Shown piece by piece: positions 13,894 to 62,689 of a stretch of DNA of 64,000 nt. The notes under the pieces are model-generated. The model had not been told where the DNA came from. It saw nothing but the letters and a program-made list of their open reading frames with translations, and made no database searches. The stretch spans positions 62,001 through 126,000 of the forward strand of contig JALJEE010000349.1 of assembly GCA_023231475.1 (NCBI GenBank). Direction: 5' to 3'. Positions within the stretch are counted from its first letter, which is position 1. Each line of letters opens with the position of its first letter. The translations under genes and the position numbers were made by a program. The stretch is from Seison nebaliae (taxonomy: Eukaryota > Rotifera > Pararotatoria > Seisonacea > Seisonidae).

Positions 13894-15618
13894 TCAAGTC
13901 TCACTCTCGAGGAGAATCCTCAGGGCGCTTGGTTGGTTGTTCTCTATCAAGGTCTTGGCAGATTGCAGGGTAGGTACCTGTTCTTCACGTAACCGCGACG
14001 ATGATGAAAACGAAAAGATGAAGTCACGAAATTCCGTTGATAGAGGTGTGTGTGATATGCAGTAGTATTCGATTGTGTGTGAGAAAACCGAATATTTCGA
14101 TGTCAATGATCGTTGAATGAGAGTGAGTATATGGGGAAAGAATCCCGATGACGAGAAGTTGTCAATGGCGCGGAAAAATCGACAATATGTAATGGGAAAT
14201 GGAAGAAATTCGGTGACGGAGAAAGTCAGATTTCGATTGATTCTCCTGAAACACCCTATGAGGCGACGGATGATGTTGTTGTATGTTAAGTCCATTCTGG
14301 AGAATGAGTTGTTGGAGACGAAAAATAGCGAGTCCAGTTCGTATAATGGAAAAACGAGTGAGGAGAAAACACGCAAACGAATATCGAATGGAAGATGTTT
14401 CGATCGTGTTGAGAATGAGAAAGAGGCTCGAACGAATTTGTTCCTAATATGATCGAGTGAAGTTGATGCTACCATTTTGGAGTCTAAGAAGACACCGAGG
14501 AACGTATGACCTTGCGCTGGAAAAGAGGAAGTTGGGAATTTCCTCAGCACAGAGTGACTTATGGAAAGGACGACAGTCTTCGTCGGATTGATTTTGATGG
14601 AAACTTCAGCCAGGAGAACCTGTGCTTTTTCACAAATTTGGTTGAGTTGTCGAGGAGAAGTGGAAAAAATTAAGATGTCGTCGGCATAGGCTAATGCGGC
14701 TGGAAATTGAGTACCGTTGATTTTGATGGTGTAAAGTTCGTTTAACTGAAGAATGACAGTCAAGAGTGAGTCCGAACAGTCAAGGACCAAGAATAGACCC
14801 TTGTCTGACACCATTATTGGCGGGGAACGGATATCCAAGTGTATGATCCAGTGACACAGAGACGGTGGAGGAAAAACATAAATGGCGCCACAAACGTTAC
14901 ACCATTTCTGGTGTGTTTCGTGCGGCCAGAGAAGAGATGGCAGGTAAAACGTCGATAGAATCAAAAGCTTTAGATGCGTCTAAAAATAACGCATGTAATT
15001 GCGAATGATGTGCTCGAGCTTCGAGCAATAGAGAATGATAGATCATGAGAATCGGATGGACTCCGCGATCGACTGCTCTATATGCGAATTGATGTGCTGA
15101 GGAAAATAAACTCGTCTTATATCGATTATATTATACTATTATACGAATTCAAATCATTCGGATCGTTGGAAAGGTTTCTTCAATAGAGGAATTGCTCTAA
15201 AATGGAACCAATCCGTGGGAAACACGCCATTATTGAAAGCTTGATTAACAGATTCAAGAAGAATTGGCGACAGCTGATCTTCGTAGCGTTGGACAAGTTT
15301 CGGACAGATCCCGTCGATGCCGTGCGCTTTGTTGATTCCAGTGGAGTTGATTGCATTGGAAATATCTCTAATCGTGAACATATCAGAACTTGTCATGCAG
15401 TCGGGAATTTGGGTTGAATGATTGGAATCAGTTTCCATCTGTGAACGGAAATGTGATGAGAATTGAGATATGGAAGGACGATCTTGCGAATCGGTGTTCG
15501 ATCTGGCGGGACGAAGACGTGTCCAGATGGTCGACTGGTTCGGAGATGAGAGAAGAGATTTCGCTGATTTCATTTCGGAATATCTGTCTATAACCACAGG
15601 CAGTACCGTCGACTGCAC
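13894..15618 (-). pseudogene. Degenerate, 5'-truncated non-LTR (LINE-type) retrotransposon, reverse transcriptase region
   Basis: Pieces of one reverse transcriptase are spread over three frames. 15618-15154 carries the fingers (AHGIDGICPKLVQ, RAIPLLKKP). About 15110-14950 carries FAYRAVDRGV and palm motif A (LFLDASKAFDS). About 14820-14770 carries motif B (NNGVRQGSILGP, then an in-frame TGA, then LFGLTLD). 14964-13894 carries the catalytic AYADDILIF and the thumb (FLGVFLDSKM). The segment where the conserved YRPISL motif should follow DLNSY is missing. No endonuclease or 5' UTR is visible upstream. Frameshifts, an internal stop and the deletion make it a fossil; the clade (CR1, R4 or I-like) cannot be settled by eye. 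Confidence 0.85.
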
Positions 15619-42025: not shown

Positions 42026-42396
42026 AAGTATTCTTTTAGAAAGGATAATACGCAAACGAAATGGATAAAGAGTTGAATTAAACAAAAAATTCATAATAAA
42101 TTCCAATTTTGAGACTATCTACTAATTCTTATATACTTTTTTATTCTAAATAAATTTGAATTGTAATCAAATTTTTTTTGGTGTTCCATATGACGGGGTC
42201 GTGTGTCGTCACAGAACGGGAAATAATAGAAATTTTCTATTTTATGGAAAATTCGAAGGGAGCAGAGTTAAACGTATCATATTTGAAATGAAAAACTTCA
42301 ATCGAAATTACTTTAGTCAAAAATTATAATTTATTCTCTTTTGTTTCCGTTCTTATCGTCGAAATTTGTTTTTTTTAGTTCGATTAATAGTTGGAA

Positions 42397-42921
42397 ATGA
42401 GTCCAGGAATCAACAGACGTACCAAACAAAGAAATCCGAAGAAAGGTAATAAAGCGGCAAAGAATAATACAACATCCGACGGTCTCACACCAGAACAGAT
42501 CGCCGAATTCAAGGAAGCCTTCGCACTCTTCGACAAAGATGGCGACGGAAATATCACAACGAAAGAACTTGGCACCGTCATGAGATCGTTGGGACAGAAT
42601 CCGACCGAGGGAGAATTACAAGACATGATCAATGAGGTGGATTCGGATGGAAATGGGAGAATTGAATTTCCTGAATTTCTCCAAATGATGGCGAGAAAGA
42701 TGAAGGATCAGGATTCAGAACAAGAGATTCGAGAAGCTTTCCGCGTTTTCGATAAAGATGGAAACGGTTTTATATCAGCTGCCGAATTGAGACATGTCAT
42801 GACTCATTTAGGAGAGAAGTTGACAGACGCCGAAGTTGAGGAGATGATTCGTGAAGCTGATATTGATGGTGATGGTCAAGTGAATTACGAAGAGTTTGTG
42901 AAAATGATGACATCGAAATAA
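42397..42921 (+). CDS. CALM: Calmodulin with basic N-terminal extension, single exon
   Basis: Ca2+ sensor. The first ATG is at 42397, giving 174 residues. Residues 30-174 are a near-canonical calmodulin: EF-hand loops [12 protein letters not shown] (46-57), [12 protein letters not shown] (82-93), [12 protein letters not shown] (119-130) and [12 protein letters not shown] (155-166), all with intact ligands, and the linker [13 protein letters not shown]. In place of the usual MADQ there are 29 residues ([20 protein letters not shown] and more), rich in Lys/Arg/Asn. No stop or splice acceptor breaks the extension from the body, although gttttttttag ends at 42378. Lack of introns, while most neighbours have them, allows a retrocopy origin. 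AATAAA is at 42986-42991. Confidence 0.92.
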
Positions 42922-45149: not shown

Positions 45150-46211
45150 TCATTTATCATTCAATTCTCGAGGTGGATTCAAATCGAAACTATTTTTCGC
45201 TTTATCAACAGTAGGAATATAGGGAGCTCGAATATCGCCCATAATTATTCGTTGAATTGGATAACGAGCGAAATAGAGATGATCAAAAATTTGATAAACA
45301 TTTTTTATTCCTAAACGTTCCGTCGGCTCTTTAGTGAGAAGTGCTCGAGTGATATTTCTCGCTCCACAACTCATATATTTGGGAGGATGAATTCGACCTT
45401 TGTCAATATTAGTTAACGTTTTTGTTGTATCTTTCGAATAGAAGGGAGTACAACCTTCGATCCACGTATAATAAATAATTCCGACTTGCCACCAATCGGC
45501 AGCAAAAGAATAACCATCACCACGAACCATTTCTGGTGAACGATAATCGATAGCGTGTATTTCTGTATATGTGATAAATGGTTCATCTTCGAATACGTGA
45601 GAATGTGAGAAATCGAAGATTTTCATATATCCATTAGGTCCGATCATACAATTGTAGAGATTCCATCCTCGATAAAGAACATGACAACGATGCAAATAGT
45701 CAGTGATATAAACGATTTGTACGAGATAAAATTTAGCTGCATATTCTGTCAATCGACCATTCGTCATAAGAATGTCAGCGATATTAACGTACATTTCGAA
45801 AGGATAGAGAATATAAAGGAAACGATCATCAGCAAAATATCCATTCACTTTCGCTATCGATGGTAAATCGAAAGTTCTCAATAATCGGACATTCATTTGA
45901 ACTTTATCTAACAAATTCGTTCGTTGCAACTTCTTCACATTGATCTTCTTCACAATAACTTTATCACCTCCCTCACATTCTGCCGCTAATGTTACTGATG
46001 TGTCACAGTTGGCGAGCGTGTAAAGGAAATGAAGTTCCTTCGCCACCGTAAATTTGACCTTGGACATTAATTTCCATTTCTTATGAAACGTTTCGACGAG
46101 GAGAGACAATCGAGCTGCATTTGATGATTGCATCGTTTTGTCCTTTCCCGGATCGTCGACGTTTCCTTCGGGCGTTGTTGGAACGATGATCATATGCGGT
46201 CGTTTCTCCAT
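45150..46211 (-). CDS. PKA-catalytic-like pseudokinase, single exon
   Basis: 353 residues covering a whole AGC-type kinase fold plus C-tail. Alignment by eye to PKA: LVETFHKKW (A-helix), the WWQVGIIYYTWIEGCTPF region (PKA DWWALG...AGYPPF), DHLYFARYPIQRI and APYIPTVDKAKNSFDL (C-tail). Catalytic elements are lost: the Gly-rich loop is replaced by LANCDTSVTLAAE (no glycines); the alpha-C Glu is Asn107; the catalytic loop YRDLKPEN reads Y180-RGWNLY-N187, so the catalytic Asp is Gly182 and the Lys is Asn184; DFG is D200-F-S. The beta-3 Lys (K88 or K89) and the DFG Asp remain, so nucleotide binding is not excluded but phosphotransfer is unlikely. A cag acceptor-like site lies 4 bases before the ATG. 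It is divergent from the membrane-protein gene 237 bases away. Confidence 0.85.
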   Translation of the reverse strand: MEKRPHMIIVPTTPEGNVDDPGKDKTMQSSNAARLSLLVETFHKKWKLMSKVKFTVAKELHFLYTLANCDTSVTLAAECEGGDKVIVKKINVKKLQRTNLLDKVQMNVRLLRTFDLPSIAKVNGYFADDRFLYILYPFEMYVNIADILMTNGRLTEYAAKFYLVQIVYITDYLHRCHVLYRGWNLYNCMIGPNGYMKIFDFSHSHVFEDEPFITYTEIHAIDYRSPEMVRGDGYSFAADWWQVGIIYYTWIEGCTPFYSKDTTKTLTNIDKGRIHPPKYMSCGARNITRALLTKEPTERLGIKNVYQIFDHLYFARYPIQRIIMGDIRAPYIPTVDKAKNSFDLNPPRELNDK

Positions 46212-49081: not shown

Positions 49082-52000
49082 ATGTTCGTTCGAGACATCA
49101 CCTGTTTCAAGTGGCAAAAGAAGGAGGATATCGCACAACGACTTTGGCGTGCAATACACAACAACACCCAATCGTTATATAATGAGATGCAGACAATGCC
49201 AAAAAATGCAACACTTCTTATTTATAATATGACGCAACAGACGAAACATGTCATCGTTCGTGATGGTCATATTTGGCAATTGAGAAATGATTCTCGAATA
49301 AGATCCGATCGACTTCATAAGAAGTTGGATAGTGGACAAGCGGAATATGTGAAAGAAAGATTTCTCAAAGATTATTCTTTGGACGTCGAATTGAATTGTC
49401 GATATTCTCATTCTGATATTCTCCCACCGTTTAAACGACGAATTTATTGGTTAGATGTCCGAAGGAATGATCCTGTTTCTGGTGATGTGAAAATACGACG
49501 TTTATTGCCATGCATTCATCTCTATCACTATTTGATTGATGCGACGAATATTTTGAAAACGACATCAAATAAAACATCCCGGTCAAATAATAGAAGTCGT
49601 AATCAGGAAAAGAATAACGATGAGAATTTATCGATTTTCATTGATGGAAATTGTTTGAAAAGAAGATTAATTGATAGGAAAATTCTCTTAATAAATCCAG
49701 TCACTACAACGACAACCACCACTACATCATCATCATCATCATTGATAACAACTGGTTCTACAGGAGTCAGTTCGAATGGAACTGATGAAAATCAAGAAAT
49801 CAAACGGAAATTAGAGACTGTCAATGAGAATTTCATGAAAATTCTTCGGGAACATTTATCGTCCATTTTATGGCCGGCAAGTTATCTGCAAATACATGAA
49901 TTTAACTTACTCTTAGCCGCATTAGTGGACGAACGTCAAATAAAACTGGAAATGATTCCATCAAATCAATCTGATTTCATACGACTCCATCAACTTAATA
50001 ATTTTACTGCTCCCTCATTAAATTTCGATGATGATCATGCACCGTTCTTCTGGTATCAAATTTCGATACAATACCAATTTTCACATCCGGCAGCATTGTC
50101 GATTATGACCAATTATAAAAATTATCAAACTCTGTCCAATTTTCCCATTTCTTCAACGGTTGAAATACCGCCCACAACGTCCACGTTCGATTTAGTAACA
50201 ACAACAGCAACGACGAAAGTTAATTTAGAATCGAATTATTTATTAACTACTGATAGTTGTCACATGGCTGCCATTTCCATATCTGATTCGACGAGTTCGA
50301 TGGGAAAGAATTTCGTCAAGACACCGAAACAAATTTGGCATTTATGGCCGACAGATTTCTCTTCGAAAGACAACGGTTATTTATATTTGATGAGCAAAGA
50401 ATTCGATCAATTATTATTACAACAAAATTATCAGGATAAATTGACATTAGTCGTTGAGATATCTGATGAGAAGAATGTCGTCGTTATTCCCAGTACGAAA
50501 TTGATATTTTCTGTTTCATTAGTCTCCTGTCAAATGTTCATGTTATCAATTCAAACATTCTTCCGAACTTTATTGGAACAAACGAATCAGTTGACGATTA
50601 ATGTCCAATATTATCTTTCATTATTCTCTCTGGAAAATGGATCGATTCACATCGATGGAAAATCGAATCAAATTGCTTTTTGTTTATTTGATAATAATAT
50701 CGATCAATTCGATGATGAACCATTGCCATTAATATTACCCATTTCCATCACCACAAATTATTCGAGTGAAGATGATATGATGAACGAGTCATCACATCTT
50801 CGTGAGATTGCTCAAACGGTAATCGACGCCATCGATTCCTTAAGTCATGAACGGAACACCAATATATTAGGGAAGACAAAAACGTCGTTTTCATCAACAG
50901 CCTCATCATTTCCATTCTCAACTATTAGTCAATTGCCGATACGCAACATTTCATCTTCCGCCATCAATCGACAGGATCATTTGTCCAATTTCAATAATTC
51001 TCAAACGATTTCCACCAAAAACTCTTCGACATCATTTTTGATCAGTTCATCATTCCTTCCATCGTCAACTACTTTAGTGAAGAATTCATCGAATGAGCCC
51101 GTTACAAAAACATGTTCGGATATGATAGCAGTATCAACGATTGATCCTCTATGTAGTTCCATGAGAATGGAAAAGAATTCCTGTGAGAAATTTTTGGAAA
51201 CGAACGAAATGAATGAAGGAACTTCATATCAGTCGACGAACGACGATAAACATTTGGAAGAATCGAAATTAACAAAGGAATCTTCTTCTCGGTCACCTCC
51301 ACCATCAGCTGATGATTTATCAGCTTTCCTTCATTCGACCAACATCGAAGATGAATTCCAAAATTTGACTTTGACAGAAAATGAGAGAAATGAATTTTAT
51401 CGTGCGGCAATCACAATTCAGAAAGCATACCGTCGATCAAAACGACGACGAACCACACACGAAACGAGTGATCCGAAAACGTTGAAAAGTGAACAAACTT
51501 ATATCAAAGAAGAATTGAAGAGAACGACACCAACACCATCTAATAGTATTGAGGGACATAATCTATCAAATGTTTTCTCGTCGGAACAGGTGGTGAAGAA
51601 TTCACATGAACTATCAGATAATCAATCAGGAATTAAATTTAATTCAGTTAAACGAATTGAAGAAATTCCATTTGATTCTACAATTAATTCAAATGACAAT
51701 TTAATTGATATTTTCGATTATTCAACTGATAATTCAATTTATCCGTCTTGTCCATTCAGCGATTCCGGCATGTTTTATAGTCAAAGTTTTGATGGAATTA
51801 TGAACGATTATAATAATTCTTTCTCATTCAATTCTTCTTTTGAACAACTCAGACAATTCAATAATACATCCCATTCCACCGAACACATCCTTCTACATCC
51901 CAGTGACCGGAACAACAATTTCTTCCATTCCCAATCACCCGAAGAGAATGAAAACGAATCAAATTTCTTCTCATTCAACACCATCCCTTCTATTGATGCC

Positions 52001-53269
52001 ACTCTCAACAATTTCTCTCAAGAATGTGGCGATAAATTTTTATTTCCCTCCGACAAAATTAAAGAAGAAAATCAATTCCAAAATGACAATTGTCAAACGA
52101 ACAGCAAATCAGAGAAATATCAAAACTCTTTATCGATCTCTAATGAAATTGTCAATTCAAATAAATATTTCCCATCACACACTTATATGACTGATGGTTA
52201 TTGTCCGAAAGAATTCCACAATTCAACTACACCAAATTTATCTAATTCGAATTTGGATGCTCAATCCATTCACTTATCTCGAGCTTATCAACCAGAATTG
52301 AAATATCAAATGCCATCGATAGTCGATTGGACTTTCCCCGACCACCAGCCCAACGACTTCTCCTCTCTACATCTAAATGAACGGACTACTGATAATCATA
52401 TCAATGAACAGGTGTCAATGGACAACGATACATCCGAAATCGACATCATCCACAAAATCAATCAACGACCTGTCGCCAAATTGCCCATCGAAGAATTCTC
52501 CGGTATCGATCATGATGAATTTGTCGATGCTGCCATTTGTATCCAGAAGTATTACAGACGATATAAACAAGTTTCGAAATTAGATTTTATTAAATTTTCA
52601 ATTTACTCTATTTCAGTTTACTGAATATCGTCGATTATGTGAAGCGACAAAATTCATCCAAAATCGATTTTGGCATCGACTCAAATCGGAGAAGACTGAA
52701 CTGAATGAATTGAATGAGAATCGAAAGAGAACGCAACAAATCGACCAATACATTAAACAAACGTTAGTAAATTGAAGATTCGACATGAGAGAATGGAAGA
52801 AGAATTTTCTTTCATTCTAAATCATCTGTAGTTTGTTCCAATAATTAAATCATAAATATCTGATTATCTCTTCTTTTGCTGTTAATTCATATCATTTGAT
52901 GGATACTTATTCTTTCCAATTTTTTCTTTTTTTGTGCCGATGGACTAACAGCATACTCCAATTATATGCGATCTGCCAGGTAATCGACAATTATATCAAT
53001 TTAGTTGCTTCTCTTGTACGTGTTTCATTTCGTCATTCTTCTCTTCCATCTCACGAAGCGAAATGGTGAAGGAATCTGTGAAAATTATTTATAAATTTTT
53101 CGACACTGTTTCGTTATTGTAATAAATTTATCAATTTTGTTTTTTACTTGTATCTGTCCACTTACCATTTCATGGCAATGTAATTTTGTGCAATTTATTC
53201 TTTATCCTCTAACTGTTCTCCTTTCGATCAGGCATAGCTCCTGAATTGCCCATAAACGACATTAAATAG
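49082..53269 (+). CDS. CAMTA: CAMTA-type calmodulin-binding transcription factor, divergent
   Basis: Nuclear DNA-binding protein of the CAMTA family. Residues about 8-155 are a CG-1 domain: WQKKEDIAQRLWRAI, ATLLIYNMTQQTKHVIVRDG, HIWQLRND, SHSDILPPFKRRIYWLD, HLYHYLID. A long Ser/Thr/Asn-rich middle follows in which I find no TIG domain and no ankyrin repeats. The family sequence before the IQ motifs is clear (DDLSAFLHSTNIEDEFQNLT, LTENERNEFYRAAITIQKAY). IQ1 is at about residue 776; IQ2 (AAICIQKYYRRYKQ) comes only at about 1150, with a third (ATKFIQNRFWHRL) in exon 2. Exons: 49082-52570, 52617-52766, a 28-base exon 52952-52979 and 53232-53269, giving 1234 residues ending APELPINDIK. If the third intron is not spliced, translation stops at 52775 (1215 residues). 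The start ATG is the first in the open frame; an upstream exon is possible. Confidence 0.82.
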
Positions 53270-57339: not shown

Positions 57340-58512
57340 ATCGAATCATATTTTCTCGCCCTCATTTCAACAAGTGCACTCATTTCTAGAGATTGCAAAT
57401 GCTAATTCTCATGTAGCAGACGTGAAAACATTAACCGTTGGAAATTTCGTAAAACCATCGAATTATTTTCATTCAATTTTCATTTCGATCTATTTATCCT
57501 CCTTGATTCTCCTGAATTAGCATTCAATGAAACTGCAACAAATCTGCTGCAATTTTTCAATATATTTTTCTCTCACTTCTATTCTTTCTTACTTAATGTT
57601 GTTCGTCAAATTAAAAATTTTATTTCAAAAAAACTTTTTATTTCTTTTCTTCATCTAATCTCTTCATTCCGAATACTTCACTAATGCATCACCCATTATT
57701 CACTTGTCACTAGACGTCACATCTATCACGTCTCTTCCACTTAATTGAAAGAATAATAAAGAAAAGTTCGGTATTGCTACCGTTCAGCAAACCGGTACAA
57801 TTTCTATCTTCAATTGACAAACTTTACTAACCAATTATAGTCATAAACATCCGGTAAAAAAGATGATTTTAAGATAGATTAAAATTAAATGTATAGATTG
57901 AAGAAATTTAAAATGGACAAAGAAGATGTTTGAAGAATCAATATGGAAGTTAAAACTTTGTTTCAATCAATCAAAATTATCATTCAAATAATCCATGTCA
58001 TTACGATATGGATTCATTTTTCGTAATAGAATGATAATCAAATGGTAAATATGAAATCAAAAAATTTAAAGAATTTTTTTGATTTAAGTATGAAGAATAC
58101 TATGAATAGAAATGTTAGAGATAAATGAAAACATTTAAAATGATAGTCGTAAAGTTGGATTATAGAATAACAACAATTTCTCCAACATATGATCGATTAT
58201 CATATCAATCGATATCGTTATCATGATGAATAATTGTCATGAGAATAGAATGATGAAGAATTGGTGAAGCTTTTCTTGAGAATTGTTAATTTAGTGTCAA
58301 TTCATTTTGATAATTGAGAATATGCTCACGATTTTCTAAACATAAGATTCGAATCTATAACTTCTATTCATCATTTCATTTCTTAATGTTCAATTGATGT
58401 TAAGGACGATTAGTGATAGAGATAGGGATTGCTCCAATTCGCCGAAAAACGATAATTCAACGATATTTTCATAAAGTCTCCCAACTTCACAAGTCACGAC
58501 AATTTGTTTGTG
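57340..58512. other. Intergenic region after the neuropeptide gene
   Basis: AT-rich, no supported gene; the frame 57149-57520 overlapping the neuropeptide in another phase is a shadow. Confidence 0.5.
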
Positions 58513-60384
58513 ATGAATAACCAGGAACGACTGAAGAGATATCAATCAAGGAAGAAATTCTCCTTACCCATTTCACTCAATGAATCTTTATCTCAAATGA
58601 TTGGACAACATCGTCGACGGACATGTTCCATGTCGGATAGCAATAAAATGGGAGGAATAGATGTCGACAAGATGATCGATGATCAGATTAATGACATTTT
58701 AGATGACGAATTGGCCAAACAGAACCTTTACCAATTTCTCCTTCGATATTCTGGTGCTCATCCGAATAATGAATATGTCTCTTCTCTCGGAACAACGAAT
58801 GTTGTCGAATGGAATTTCAATTTTATTTCAATCGATCAATTAATAGCAACAGATGATTTTAGTCCAATAAAGAAGAATATCGATTCAGTAGAGATCGAAG
58901 GACATTTGCGAAGAGAAATTTCCAATCTGATGCAACTGAATCGTCGTCAAAATTTGAATGATATTCAGTATCTTTCTTTCGTCAAATGTCCGAAGGAAAT
59001 GATCGATGAAATGGAATTAAATATCGATTCCAAGAAGATGGAAAATTCGTCATTGTTATCGAGGAGATTTTGGAAGAAATTCTGGAAATTGATCTTCTCC
59101 ATTATTCATTCGGCTAATTATATCAGATATACGTCAACTGTTCAGAATCATCAGATTTCTATTTTGTTCATACAAAAGGAACATTTATCATTCACATTCC
59201 TTTTGGGACAAGACCAAGTGAATATTGACGGTGGTGCATTTCATTACTCTCTCATATATTTTCATGGAATGCGACTACTGTTCATAACGACGACGATAAA
59301 TGATGAACAAATGGAAGATGATGAAATGAGGAAACAGTTTCTCATTCAAATATTCCTGTATAATATGTCGATATTGGAATCGAAAGAATCATATCACGAT
59401 TTACACGATCTTTGTTTCCAACGAATAAATCCATTTGAACTTGATAAAAGTATTAATTCTCAATCAAAAACATCGGAAAAGAAACCGTTAAAATTAGCCG
59501 ATTCCTTTGATTATGTCATATGTTCCGGATATTTAGGATTTTCTCTAACCCACATCGATTTAAATCAAATTCATAATTTACTTGATAAGAATTCCATTTC
59601 CAATTTATTCTCTCATGATACTCTCAATATTGGATCAATCGATAAACGATTACCATCCGTCGCATTGATGGAAGAGGAAGTCAATTTTATTCCAACTTTT
59701 CCAGTTTATCTCACAAAAAATTTCGATCGTCTCTATTTCCACAACGAATTACCGTCGTGGTCCGATCGGATATTGTTCGGGGTTAAACGTTCCTCTTATG
59801 GTTCATGTTCACCGTTGACTTACAATTCCGTTAGTCAACCACTCTATTACATTCCCACTCGACATTTGCCGGTTCGAGGTGAATTCGAATTTCTTCTCGA
59901 TTCGATCGATTCGGAAGAGAATGCAAGAATTGATAAAATGGAGAAATTGAATGAATATGAAATTAATGTCATTTTCACCATCATATTTCCTTCAATCAAT
60001 CTCTGTCAATCGATTTGTAGCGAATGTCAATTCTTTAATCGAATCTTCCAAAAGTATTCGGATGAACGAAAAATATTTATTCAACTCACTAATTATCAAA
60101 TGAATCATATCCATCAACAACTCTCATTAGAACAATGTCAATTATATGGAAGTCTCAATCTTCTTCCATGTAATGATCGAAACGATAATTCATCATCTTC
60201 TTCAACATCTCTCCCATTCGACAGGATTAAATGGAAACATTTGAAAATGATAAGAAATGATCGACGAACATATCAATGTTCTCTTCGACTACCATCAGAA
60301 GTTGTAAAGGAAAACGATTTTTATTTTATTCGAATTCATCAGAAAGAATTGGACGTTCCAATTTGTTTCCGCAAATTCAATTAA
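58513..60384 (+). CDS. Inositol polyphosphate 5-phosphatase-like protein, catalytically degenerate
   Basis: A single-exon protein of 623 residues; the first ATG is 58513 (the frame opens at a TTG 9 bases earlier). The fold is recognised from the order of remnants of family motifs: QISILFIQKEHL then FHYSLIYFHGMRLLFITTTI (where active enzymes have NKGAV and NSHLAAH), FDYVICSGYLGFSL at about 333-346 (where WLGDLNYR should be), FSHDTLN, IPTFPVY (FPPTY), P414-SWSDRIL-421 (PAWCDRIL) and T449-RHLPV (SDHKPV). The metal- and phosphate-binding residues of three motifs are replaced, while the scaffold signature PSWSDRIL and the His of the last motif remain. The N-terminus is basic (RLKRYQSRKK); a poly-Ser run lies near the C-terminus. 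Predicted pseudophosphatase, possibly a lipid-binding scaffold. It is convergent with the paraplegin gene, 127 bases apart. Confidence 0.6.
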   Translation: MNNQERLKRYQSRKKFSLPISLNESLSQMIGQHRRRTCSMSDSNKMGGIDVDKMIDDQINDILDDELAKQNLYQFLLRYSGAHPNNEYVSSLGTTNVVEWNFNFISIDQLIATDDFSPIKKNIDSVEIEGHLRREISNLMQLNRRQNLNDIQYLSFVKCPKEMIDEMELNIDSKKMENSSLLSRRFWKKFWKLIFSIIHSANYIRYTSTVQNHQISILFIQKEHLSFTFLLGQDQVNIDGGAFHYSLIYFHGMRLLFITTTINDEQMEDDEMRKQFLIQIFLYNMSILESKESYHDLHDLCFQRINPFELDKSINSQSKTSEKKPLKLADSFDYVICSGYLGFSLTHIDLNQIHNLLDKNSISNLFSHDTLNIGSIDKRLPSVALMEEEVNFIPTFPVYLTKNFDRLYFHNELPSWSDRILFGVKRSSYGSCSPLTYNSVSQPLYYIPTRHLPVRGEFEFLLDSIDSEENARIDKMEKLNEYEINVIFTIIFPSINLCQSICSECQFFNRIFQKYSDERKIFIQLTNYQMNHIHQQLSLEQCQLYGSLNLLPCNDRNDNSSSSSTSLPFDRIKWKHLKMIRNDRRTYQCSLRLPSEVVKENDFYFIRIHQKELDVPICFRKFN

Positions 60385-60511: not shown

Positions 60512-62689
60512 TCAAATTAATTGTTGATCGGATGTGATGGAACGTTTCGTTTCATTCGGAGGTTTCCCCAAAACCTTCTCGATATCTTCATAAGACAACG
60601 TCTCCGTTCGGATCAATTCGTCAGTGAGTTTATTGAGCAATTTAACATTGTTGGACAAGACGCTACTTGCCAATTCCTCACATTCCAATAAGAGACGTCG
60701 CACTTCGTTGTCGATCATCATTTTCAATTTTTTACTAAAAACGGTTTTGCCTTTCGATTGGGAATTGGGTGGAAACGATATACTACCCACATCTTTTGAC
60801 ATGCCATATACTTGTACCATGTCATAGGCCATTTTCGTCGCTCTCTTCAAATCCTTCTCATTCGCCGTCGATAATTTATTGAGTTGTTGAATTTCACCTA
60901 ATCGACCCGCTAACATCGAAGCAATTTGATGTTTTAATTGTTCTTTCGATTTGATGAGATTGGTTTGAGGAATACATCGAACTGAACCGAGTTGAACATT
61001 CCCTTGAGACGCATCATTTCTCGCTAATAAAGAGAGTTTGAACGGGAGATCAGCATTGGGGAGAAACCATCGAACGATTGCCGTTGATGATTGATGAATA
61101 GCAGCCGAATGACGTTCTTCTAAACTGAGACGACTATTTCGTTTGGAACCGATGAGGAATCGTTCTAATGCTTGATCGAAATCATTTAATTCTACAGTCG
61201 ATTTCGATTGACGTGCTGCCATCAATGCAGCTTCATTACAAATATTCGCTAAATCGGCACCACTCATTCCTGGAGTGATTAATGATAATCGTTTACTCAC
61301 TTCCAATTTGATGTTCTCCAATGAACGAATTGGACGTAGATGTACTTGAATGATTTCTTCTCTTTCCAATTTAGTAGGATAATCGATATTGATATGACGA
61401 TCAAATCGTCCTGGTCGAAGAAGAGCTTTATCGAGAATTTCTGATCGATTTGTTGATCCGATAACAATAACATTATCAGCTTTATCTGTTTGAATTCCAT
61501 CCATTTCAGTTAATAATTGATTAAGTGTATGTTCTTCTTCACCAGAAGCTGATGATTGATTAGCATCCGAATTCCGTTTTCTTCCAATTGCATCAATCTC
61601 ATCAATATAAATGATACAAGGTGCTTTCTTTCTTGCTTCATCGAATAATGATCGAACACGAGCTGCTCCTAATCCTCCAATCATCTCAACAAATTCACTA
61701 CCAGCCATCGATAAAAATGGCACACTCGCTTCATTCGCTATCGCTCTCGCTAATAATGTTTTACCACAACCTGGTGGTCCTAACAATAATGCTCCCTTTG
61801 GAATTTTTGCTCCCATTCGAGTGAAACGTGTCGAATCTTGAAGATAATCGACGAATTCTTTCACTTCTTCTTTCGCCTCATTTAAACCGGCGACATCTTT
61901 AAATGAAATCAAATCTTTTGTCGATTGTCGTTCCTTCTTTCCCACCATTTGATATTTCGCTTTCGTCATTCCACCCATCATATTCATACTGTTGGGCATT
62001 TGAATTTTAATATTTCTTCCCAATAGATAGAGTGCGAAAAAGAGACCGAACATTAAAGCAATCGATAAAAATGATGATTGTCTTTTGTATGATAATTGAA
62101 TTCGATTTTCTTCATTGATTCCCAACTCTTTCTCCGCCTCCTGTAATTGATGTTCGAATTGTTCGAGATTTACATATCTTAAAAGATAAATATTCCGATT
62201 CGTTTTCTTCCCATGAAGAATGGCACCTGGATGAAGATAGACGATAGCTACTTCTTCCTCAGGATGAACGACAATTCGTTGCACTTCTCCTTTTGATAAC
62301 ATCTGCGAATGGAATTCATTCCAAGAAACGTAAATTCGATTCGATTCATCATATTCTTCTTCCATGAACAATAATTGAAGGAGATAATATGAGACCATTC
62401 CTAATAATCCAACGGATAATAATCGGAGAGCTGGTGGAATAGGTGGGGGAGATGACGAGTCAGAATCATTCTTTTCTTCTTCCTTCTTCTTCTCATCTTC
62501 CTTCAATTCTTTCTCAAACAATAATCGATATCTGTTGAAAATGTCTTTTGCATCCAAATTTTGCAAGACGTTACCCGTCGAAGAAATTGGTTGAAGTATC
62601 GAATTAGAAACAACTCCTCCATTCCTCCTCCAAATCATCCGATGTCTTCGATGAAAAAAGATTCGACGGAAATTTAAGAGAAAAGACAT
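60512..62689 (-). CDS. SPG7: Paraplegin (mitochondrial m-AAA protease subunit) with degenerate zinc-protease site
   Basis: A 725-residue single-exon FtsH/m-AAA family protein. The Arg-rich, acid-free N-terminus (MSFLLNFRRIFFHRRHRMIW) suggests mitochondrial import. Two TM helices flank the intermembrane domain (about 90-110 and 205-225). The AAA module is intact: Walker A GPPGCGKT at 304-311, EFVEMIGGLGAARVRSLFDE, Walker B IIYIDEIDA, and SRH arginines in RPGRFDRH. The C-terminus (VLSNNVKLLNKLTDELIRTE, LSYEDIEKVLGKPP) aligns with paraplegin rather than AFG3L2. The protease domain is present, but the zinc motif HExxH reads H532-Q-S-S-T536 within ERHSAAIHQSSTAIVRWFLP, losing the catalytic Glu and second His; the distal ligand Asp (NEKDLKRAT) remains. 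Predicted ATPase/unfoldase-only subunit. An attttag acceptor-like site lies 13 bases before the ATG. Confidence 0.92.
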   Translation of the reverse strand: MSFLLNFRRIFFHRRHRMIWRRNGGVVSNSILQPISSTGNVLQNLDAKDIFNRYRLLFEKELKEDEKKKEEEKNDSDSSSPPPIPPALRLLSVGLLGMVSYYLLQLLFMEEEYDESNRIYVSWNEFHSQMLSKGEVQRIVVHPEEEVAIVYLHPGAILHGKKTNRNIYLLRYVNLEQFEHQLQEAEKELGINEENRIQLSYKRQSSFLSIALMFGLFFALYLLGRNIKIQMPNSMNMMGGMTKAKYQMVGKKERQSTKDLISFKDVAGLNEAKEEVKEFVDYLQDSTRFTRMGAKIPKGALLLGPPGCGKTLLARAIANEASVPFLSMAGSEFVEMIGGLGAARVRSLFDEARKKAPCIIYIDEIDAIGRKRNSDANQSSASGEEEHTLNQLLTEMDGIQTDKADNVIVIGSTNRSEILDKALLRPGRFDRHINIDYPTKLEREEIIQVHLRPIRSLENIKLEVSKRLSLITPGMSGADLANICNEAALMAARQSKSTVELNDFDQALERFLIGSKRNSRLSLEERHSAAIHQSSTAIVRWFLPNADLPFKLSLLARNDASQGNVQLGSVRCIPQTNLIKSKEQLKHQIASMLAGRLGEIQQLNKLSTANEKDLKRATKMAYDMVQVYGMSKDVGSISFPPNSQSKGKTVFSKKLKMMIDNEVRRLLLECEELASSVLSNNVKLLNKLTDELIRTETLSYEDIEKVLGKPPNETKRSITSDQQLI

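Follow-up and report, generated by a model that had tools for sequence, protein, structure and literature searches.

A paraplegin of the rotifer Seison nebaliae with a predicted dead protease site and intact ATPase motifs

The m-AAA protease is described as a hexamer built either of AFG3L2 alone or of AFG3L2 and paraplegin in alternation (PMC12994072), and mammalian paraplegin is reported to be unable to homo-oligomerise (PMC3192828; PMC3341365). The substitution E575Q is reported to kill the activity of AFG3L2 homo-oligomers, and wild-type and inactive subunits to complement one another within one ring (PMC3192828), while mutations of paraplegin are given as the cause of hereditary spastic paraplegia type 7 (PMC12994072; PMC9020784). 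In plant plastids, FtsHi1, 2, 4 and 5 are described as FtsH-type AAA+ proteins with an intact ATPase and a broken HExxH motif (PMC8197885), and their null mutants as embryo-lethal (PMC8197885; PMC9020784). No description of a naturally inactive animal paraplegin was found in the literature searched, consisting mainly of titles and abstract openings with subscription journals poorly covered, and no inactive mitochondrial FtsH of other groups was found there either, nor in passages of PMC3097184 and PMC5835776. Here we describe a paraplegin (SPG7-type) gene of Seison nebaliae, an epizoic rotifer on crustaceans for which genome studies describe gene loss and, within the species, two lineages (PMC8351084; PMC12256650). 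It lies in a window of 64,000 nucleotides, the whole stretch analysed, which is positions 62,001 to 126,000 of JALJEE010000349.1 and stands on contig 181 of an assembly of 36.0 Mb and 846 contigs. As judged from its sequence, the protein is almost certainly catalytically dead, and it is probably kept as a working motor or scaffold subunit together with AFG3L2. The gene and the parts of it that carry this finding are:

60512..62689, minus strand: paraplegin (SPG7-type) coding sequence, an uninterrupted open reading frame (ORF) of 725 codons from ATG to TGA, named by clade placement
60572..61129, minus strand: peptidase M41 domain (Pfam), residues 521-706, full length and diverged
61082..61096, minus strand: HQSST replacing HExxH, residues 532-536, with H532 kept and E533Q, G535S and H536T (alignments)
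60851..60853, minus strand: retained Asp613, in the position of the third zinc ligand (alignment)

On the minus strand, positions 61082-61096 read CATCAATCATCAACG, the codons CAT CAA TCA TCA ACG encode HQSST, and H532-Q533-S534-S535-T536 align onto the HExxH columns of relatives, as a sequence-only reading of the window had claimed. The panel used for comparison held 246 sequences, namely the 120 matches listed for each of two queries, five further matches and one Seison YME1L-type ORF; both lists of 120 contain the Seison protein itself, and paraplegins of greater divergence, among them any further inactive ones, may lie outside the panel. The HExxH string is present in 245 of these 246 sequences, the sole exception being the Seison paraplegin. 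At the three motif columns and that of Asp613, which we take to be the Asp serving as third M41 zinc ligand, the protein has H, Q, T and D, whereas H, E, H and D stand there in each of the 88 remaining paraplegin-clade members and in all 122 AFG3L2-clade proteins. The loss of the catalytic Glu and of the second zinc His, also claimed by that reading, is thus borne out, with the refinement that H532 and D613 remain. A description of YME1L has the M41 zinc bound by two His and one Asp (PMC12994072). Other conserved residues near the site are altered as well (G535S, G540R, P556A and G609A among others), and a search with the protease part only returned five other proteins, all with HEAGH and no inactive relative among them. 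Because HExxH, the mark of an active M41 zinc peptidase, is replaced, the protein is filed on sequence grounds as a paraplegin by descent and not as an active M41 peptidase.

Its descent rests on a FastTree phylogeny of the 246 sequences, rooted on the one Seison YME1L-type ORF, in which the Seison protein falls in a paraplegin clade of 89 members (support 1.0) with six bdelloid rotifer proteins as its sister (support 0.877), a separate AFG3L2 clade holds 122 members and YME1L stands apart. Among the matches listed, many members of the paraplegin clade are unnamed, and those with names are mostly called paraplegin or uncharacterised. This placement, with its bdelloid sister, identifies the protein by sequence as the paraplegin/SPG7 orthologue, in agreement with the name first given to it. 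Since it stands among animal paraplegins, in a tree that holds no FtsHi sequence, descent from the plastid FtsHi lineages is unlikely.

The divergence of the protein is concentrated in its protease domain. Of the positions with conservation of 95% or more across the rest of the paraplegin clade, 22 of 49 are changed in M41 (residues 518-706), against 7/122 in the AAA domain (Fisher's test, p = 6.9e-9), with 2/16 changed in the N-terminal region; the next most changed of the 88 other paraplegins reaches 8.5% in M41 and 5.0% in AAA. Measured against its own conserved set, the AFG3L2 of Seison is changed at 2/87 positions in M41, 6/170 in AAA and 6/22 in the N-terminal region, so that rapid protein evolution in Seison alone does not empty M41. 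Set against 82 other paraplegins, the Seison protein has a mean identity of 65.5% for AAA and 34.5% for M41 (for a bdelloid, 71.0% and 51.5%), and its terminal branches measure 1.47 for AAA and 3.26 for M41, the latter the longest in the panel. Within M41, 18/33 conserved positions are changed in the catalytic half and 4/16 in the C-terminal helical half. The flanking residues had been said to align still; they are alignable, but this understated their divergence, both in the 18/33 changes and in a stretch near residues 558-565 in which an alignment excerpt gives the Seison protein five additional columns over the bdelloids shown.

The remainder of the protein has the layout of a paraplegin, and its other features are:

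62615..62689, minus strand: N-terminal 25 residues, with 7 K/R and 0 D/E (residue composition)
62351..62434, minus strand: first predicted transmembrane helix region, residues 86-113, with hydrophobic 19-residue windows from 90-91
62099..62407, minus strand: FtsH_ext intermembrane-space domain, residues 95-197 (Pfam, E 5.8e-10)
62012..62071, minus strand: second predicted transmembrane helix, residues 207-226, with hydrophobic 19-residue windows from 204-209
61379..61789, minus strand: AAA ATPase domain, residues 301-437 (Pfam AAA, E 8.9e-44)
61757..61780, minus strand: Walker A GPPGCGKT, residues 304-311, intact (alignment)
61673..61693, minus strand: FVEMIGG, residues 333-339, intact (alignment)
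61598..61615, minus strand: Walker B IIYIDE, residues 359-364, intact (alignment)
61394..61420, minus strand: LRPGRFDRH, residues 424-432, intact (alignment)
60995..61018, minus strand: loop of residues 558-565, lengthened and of low confidence, beside the strand after the HExxH helix (alignment and predicted structure)

The order FtsH_ext, AAA, AAA lid (Pfam, residues 467-505) and M41, with two hydrophobic predicted membrane helices flanking FtsH_ext, is that of paraplegin, and the basic N-terminal 25 residues are a plausible mitochondrial presequence. With FVEMIGG, which we take to be the pore-loop segment, and LRPGRFDRH, presumably the second region of homology with the arginine fingers, the alignment gives the protein all of the FtsH-type AAA+ elements considered, from Walker A and Walker B to pore loop and arginine fingers. 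The AAA module had been called intact and the protease domain full length; the key ATPase motifs are indeed unbroken, and the Pfam M41 match spans profile positions 3-191 of 191. The whole scores 544.7 bits with TIGR01241 ('ATP-dependent zinc metalloprotease FtsH'), against a cut-off of 600, a figure that stands without an intact animal paraplegin scored beside it. Structure models still predict the M41 fold, which supports its being kept in the Seison protein.

A candidate partner is encoded in the same genome. A Pfam M41 search of the assembly found three loci, the paraplegin, an AFG3L2-type gene (G000:C66) and a YME1L-type gene, and the latter two both carry HEAGH, so that the AFG3L2 with HExxH that the sequence-only reading would have looked for elsewhere in the genome is present as a gene of that type; its protein matches SNEBB_008891 of Seison nebaliae with 100% identity over the query. 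The third locus, used as the outgroup, is read from its sequence as YME1L-type. A second, intact paraplegin was found neither by the Pfam M41 search nor with a bdelloid paraplegin as query in the 36.0 Mb of this possibly incomplete assembly; of the 26 matches to the bdelloid query only the same three M41 places reach the protease part, and the remaining 23 stop at or before query residue 577. Matches to Band_7 (not sorted into prohibitins and others), ClpP and Lon are present. Ribosomal_L32p gave no Pfam match in the assembly, where the m-AAA substrate MrpL32 may be diverged, and COX1 gave no match, probably because the mitochondrial DNA is not included.

Compared with the described systems, the Seison protein is like animal paraplegins in domain order, phylogenetic position, intact ATPase motifs and the presence of AFG3L2 in the same genome, and differs from the 88 others of its clade in the protease domain. 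The likeness to plant FtsHi proteins, drawn already from the sequence alone, proves apt, since both join a broken HExxH to an intact FtsH-type AAA+ module (PMC8197885) and the folds are similar. By analogy, FtsHi and the Ycf2-FtsHi motor, whose folds resemble the Seison model, are its nearest functional likeness. The FtsHi proteins are described as acting in hetero-complexes (PMC8197885), whereas complex formation by the Seison protein is something we infer. The two also differ in place and in chemistry: FtsHi proteins are plastidic, with both His substituted and the Glu kept (XEXXX; PMC8197885), whereas the Seison protein keeps the first His and loses the Glu. Moreover, FtsHi are additional paralogues, and the Seison protein is a mitochondrial orthologue, the sole copy found, altered in place. 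The change from Glu to Gln is that of AFG3L2 E575Q at the equivalent position, whose subunits are reported to contribute in mixed rings (PMC3192828), although E575Q is a laboratory point mutant and the Seison domain is natural and long diverged. The ClpR subunits of the plastid Clp protease are described as inactive and retained structurally in the protease core (PMC8197885), as proposed here for the Seison paraplegin, but they belong to a serine protease family unrelated to M41.

A dead paraplegin whose motor is intact and an AFG3L2 gene that looks active, as read from the sequences, fit a mixed ring with AFG3L2 as its only cutting subunit. The protease site would have been lost after the split from bdelloids, in the line leading to Seison, with the protein retained. 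Together with active AFG3L2 it would form an alternating m-AAA hexamer of the mitochondrial inner membrane, to which it would contribute ATP-driven unfolding and dislocation and a structural wall of the chamber, the cutting being left to AFG3L2 at three active sites instead of six. AFG3L2 would then have to mature the paraplegin precursor in trans, and its homo-hexamer would stay the fully armed isoform. The steps from gene to complex, and likewise expression and present selection, are our inference, and the partnership with AFG3L2 is taken from published mammalian and yeast work (PMC3192828; PMC3341365). A more specific version, which we offer tentatively and with some doubt, is that the only paraplegin known from Seison is a permanent pseudo-protease whose hetero-rings, every one half-armed (3/6 sites), favour pulling and releasing or trimming of membrane proteins over their full breakdown, while AFG3L2 homo-rings degrade; if so, motor and cutter would be naturally split in the m-AAA protease of an animal. 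A gene kept with its cutting site lost would be a natural experiment pointing to selection on the ATPase and assembly roles, and it would carry the concept of a pseudo-protease FtsH subunit from plastids to animal mitochondria. The division between motor or scaffold and protease roles of paraplegin in the m-AAA ring also bears on spastic paraplegia type 7.

Several observations weigh against retention as a working subunit. The AAA domain of the Seison protein, too, shows more change than that of any of the other 88 paraplegins, and its N-terminal region shares the top change in a tie with two others. The ratio of M41 to AAA terminal branches, 2.23 (median 1.04), ranks only ninth of 121 tips and is suggestive, not decisive, and the excess of losses in the catalytic half falls short of significance (p = 0.07). 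Retention of the fold may be flattered in the models, whose input alignments are mostly of intact proteins, and an intact second paraplegin could be missing from the assembly, given its 36.0 Mb beside a species estimate of about 46 Mb (PMC8351084). Human paraplegin is reported to be able to do the proteolysis for a ring with dead AFG3L2 (PMC3192828), so that the paraplegin protease is not idle in other animals. Finally, divergence of M41 is also expected from relaxed selection before gene loss. In a rival reading, paraplegin could be becoming dispensable in Seison, with the protease domain the first to decay and no selected role today. The heavy divergence of M41, the changes in AAA, the strong gene loss reported for the Seison lineage (PMC8351084; PMC12256650) and the two further apparently dead enzymes within the 64-kb window would all suit such a dying gene. 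We nevertheless consider it unlikely, as uniform decay would strike AAA and M41 alike, yet AAA keeps 115/122 conserved positions, the reading frame is open across 725 codons, and the protein retains H532, D613 and, in its C-terminal helical half, 12/16 conserved positions. The sequence-only reading had named orthologues with an intact motif beside decay in this ORF as evidence that would tell against it: the 88 others are intact and M41 is heavily substituted, but the frame is open and AAA is changed at only the seven positions given above.

The loss of HExxH itself is, on the sequence evidence, real, not an error and specific to the domain. The HQSST codons are at least six nucleotide changes away from any coding of HESGH, seven from HEAGH and eight from HECGH or HEGGH, so that a single sequencing error, which was rejected, cannot account for them; a compensated frameshift was likewise rejected as the cause, since neither of the other two minus-strand frames across the ORF at 60512-62689 contains HExxH. 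Third-position GC is lower in AAA (0.198) than in M41 (0.392), a difference that we do not take as a sign of a chimaeric gene, because AFG3L2 and other ORFs show like swings along their length. An artefact in a wider sense, whether consensus error, an allele carried only by the animals sequenced or a chimaera of two S. nebaliae lineages, could draw on the two lineages known in the species, with 82% mitochondrial identity (PMC8351084); it is very improbable, as the changes are all in frame and the surrounding M41 domain is changed consistently, and the consensus error rate reported for the S. nebaliae assembly GA2, whose size is not that of the assembly analysed here, is 2.1e-5 (PMC8351084). 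Scarcely credible is an altered metal site, in which the retained H532 and D613 with a new ligand would give a weak or different hydrolase activity, because Gln replaces the general-base Glu, as in the inactivated AFG3L2 E575Q (PMC3192828), and neighbouring conserved residues are changed. An ATPase ring independent of AFG3L2, serving as a membrane chaperone or dislocase in the manner of the plant motor that contains FtsHi, would agree with the intact ATPase motifs and with the rank of Ycf2-FtsHi motor folds among the structure matches; it is improbable, though less so than an artefact, in view of the homo-oligomers reported as impossible for mammalian paraplegin (PMC3192828; PMC3341365) and of the other two M41 loci of the genome, both HEAGH.

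Elsewhere in the window, no tRNA was found by ARAGORN with the bacterial code, and no Rfam family reached its gathering score. Convergent with the paraplegin gene, at 58504-60384 on the plus strand, lies a 626-residue inositol 5-phosphatase-like ORF that, compared with OCRL, has GYLGFS for GDLNYR and WSDRIL for WCDRIL and is possibly a third inactive enzyme of the window. At 45150-46211 on the minus strand, a 353-residue AGC/PKA-like kinase ORF has in its catalytic loop YRGWNLYN in place of the YRDLKPEN of RSK4 (ribosomal protein S6 kinase alpha-6), and DFS replaces DFG, so that it looks like a pseudokinase. A partial reverse transcriptase ORF (Pfam RVT_1) at 13894-14964 on the minus strand is a retroelement remnant. 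On the plus strand, a 1180-residue CAMTA-like ORF at 49082-52624 has a CG-1 domain by Pfam and IQ-like motifs by eye, and an ORF at 42391-42921, calmodulin-like by eye, carries a basic N-terminal extension from a TTG, its true start perhaps lying further in.
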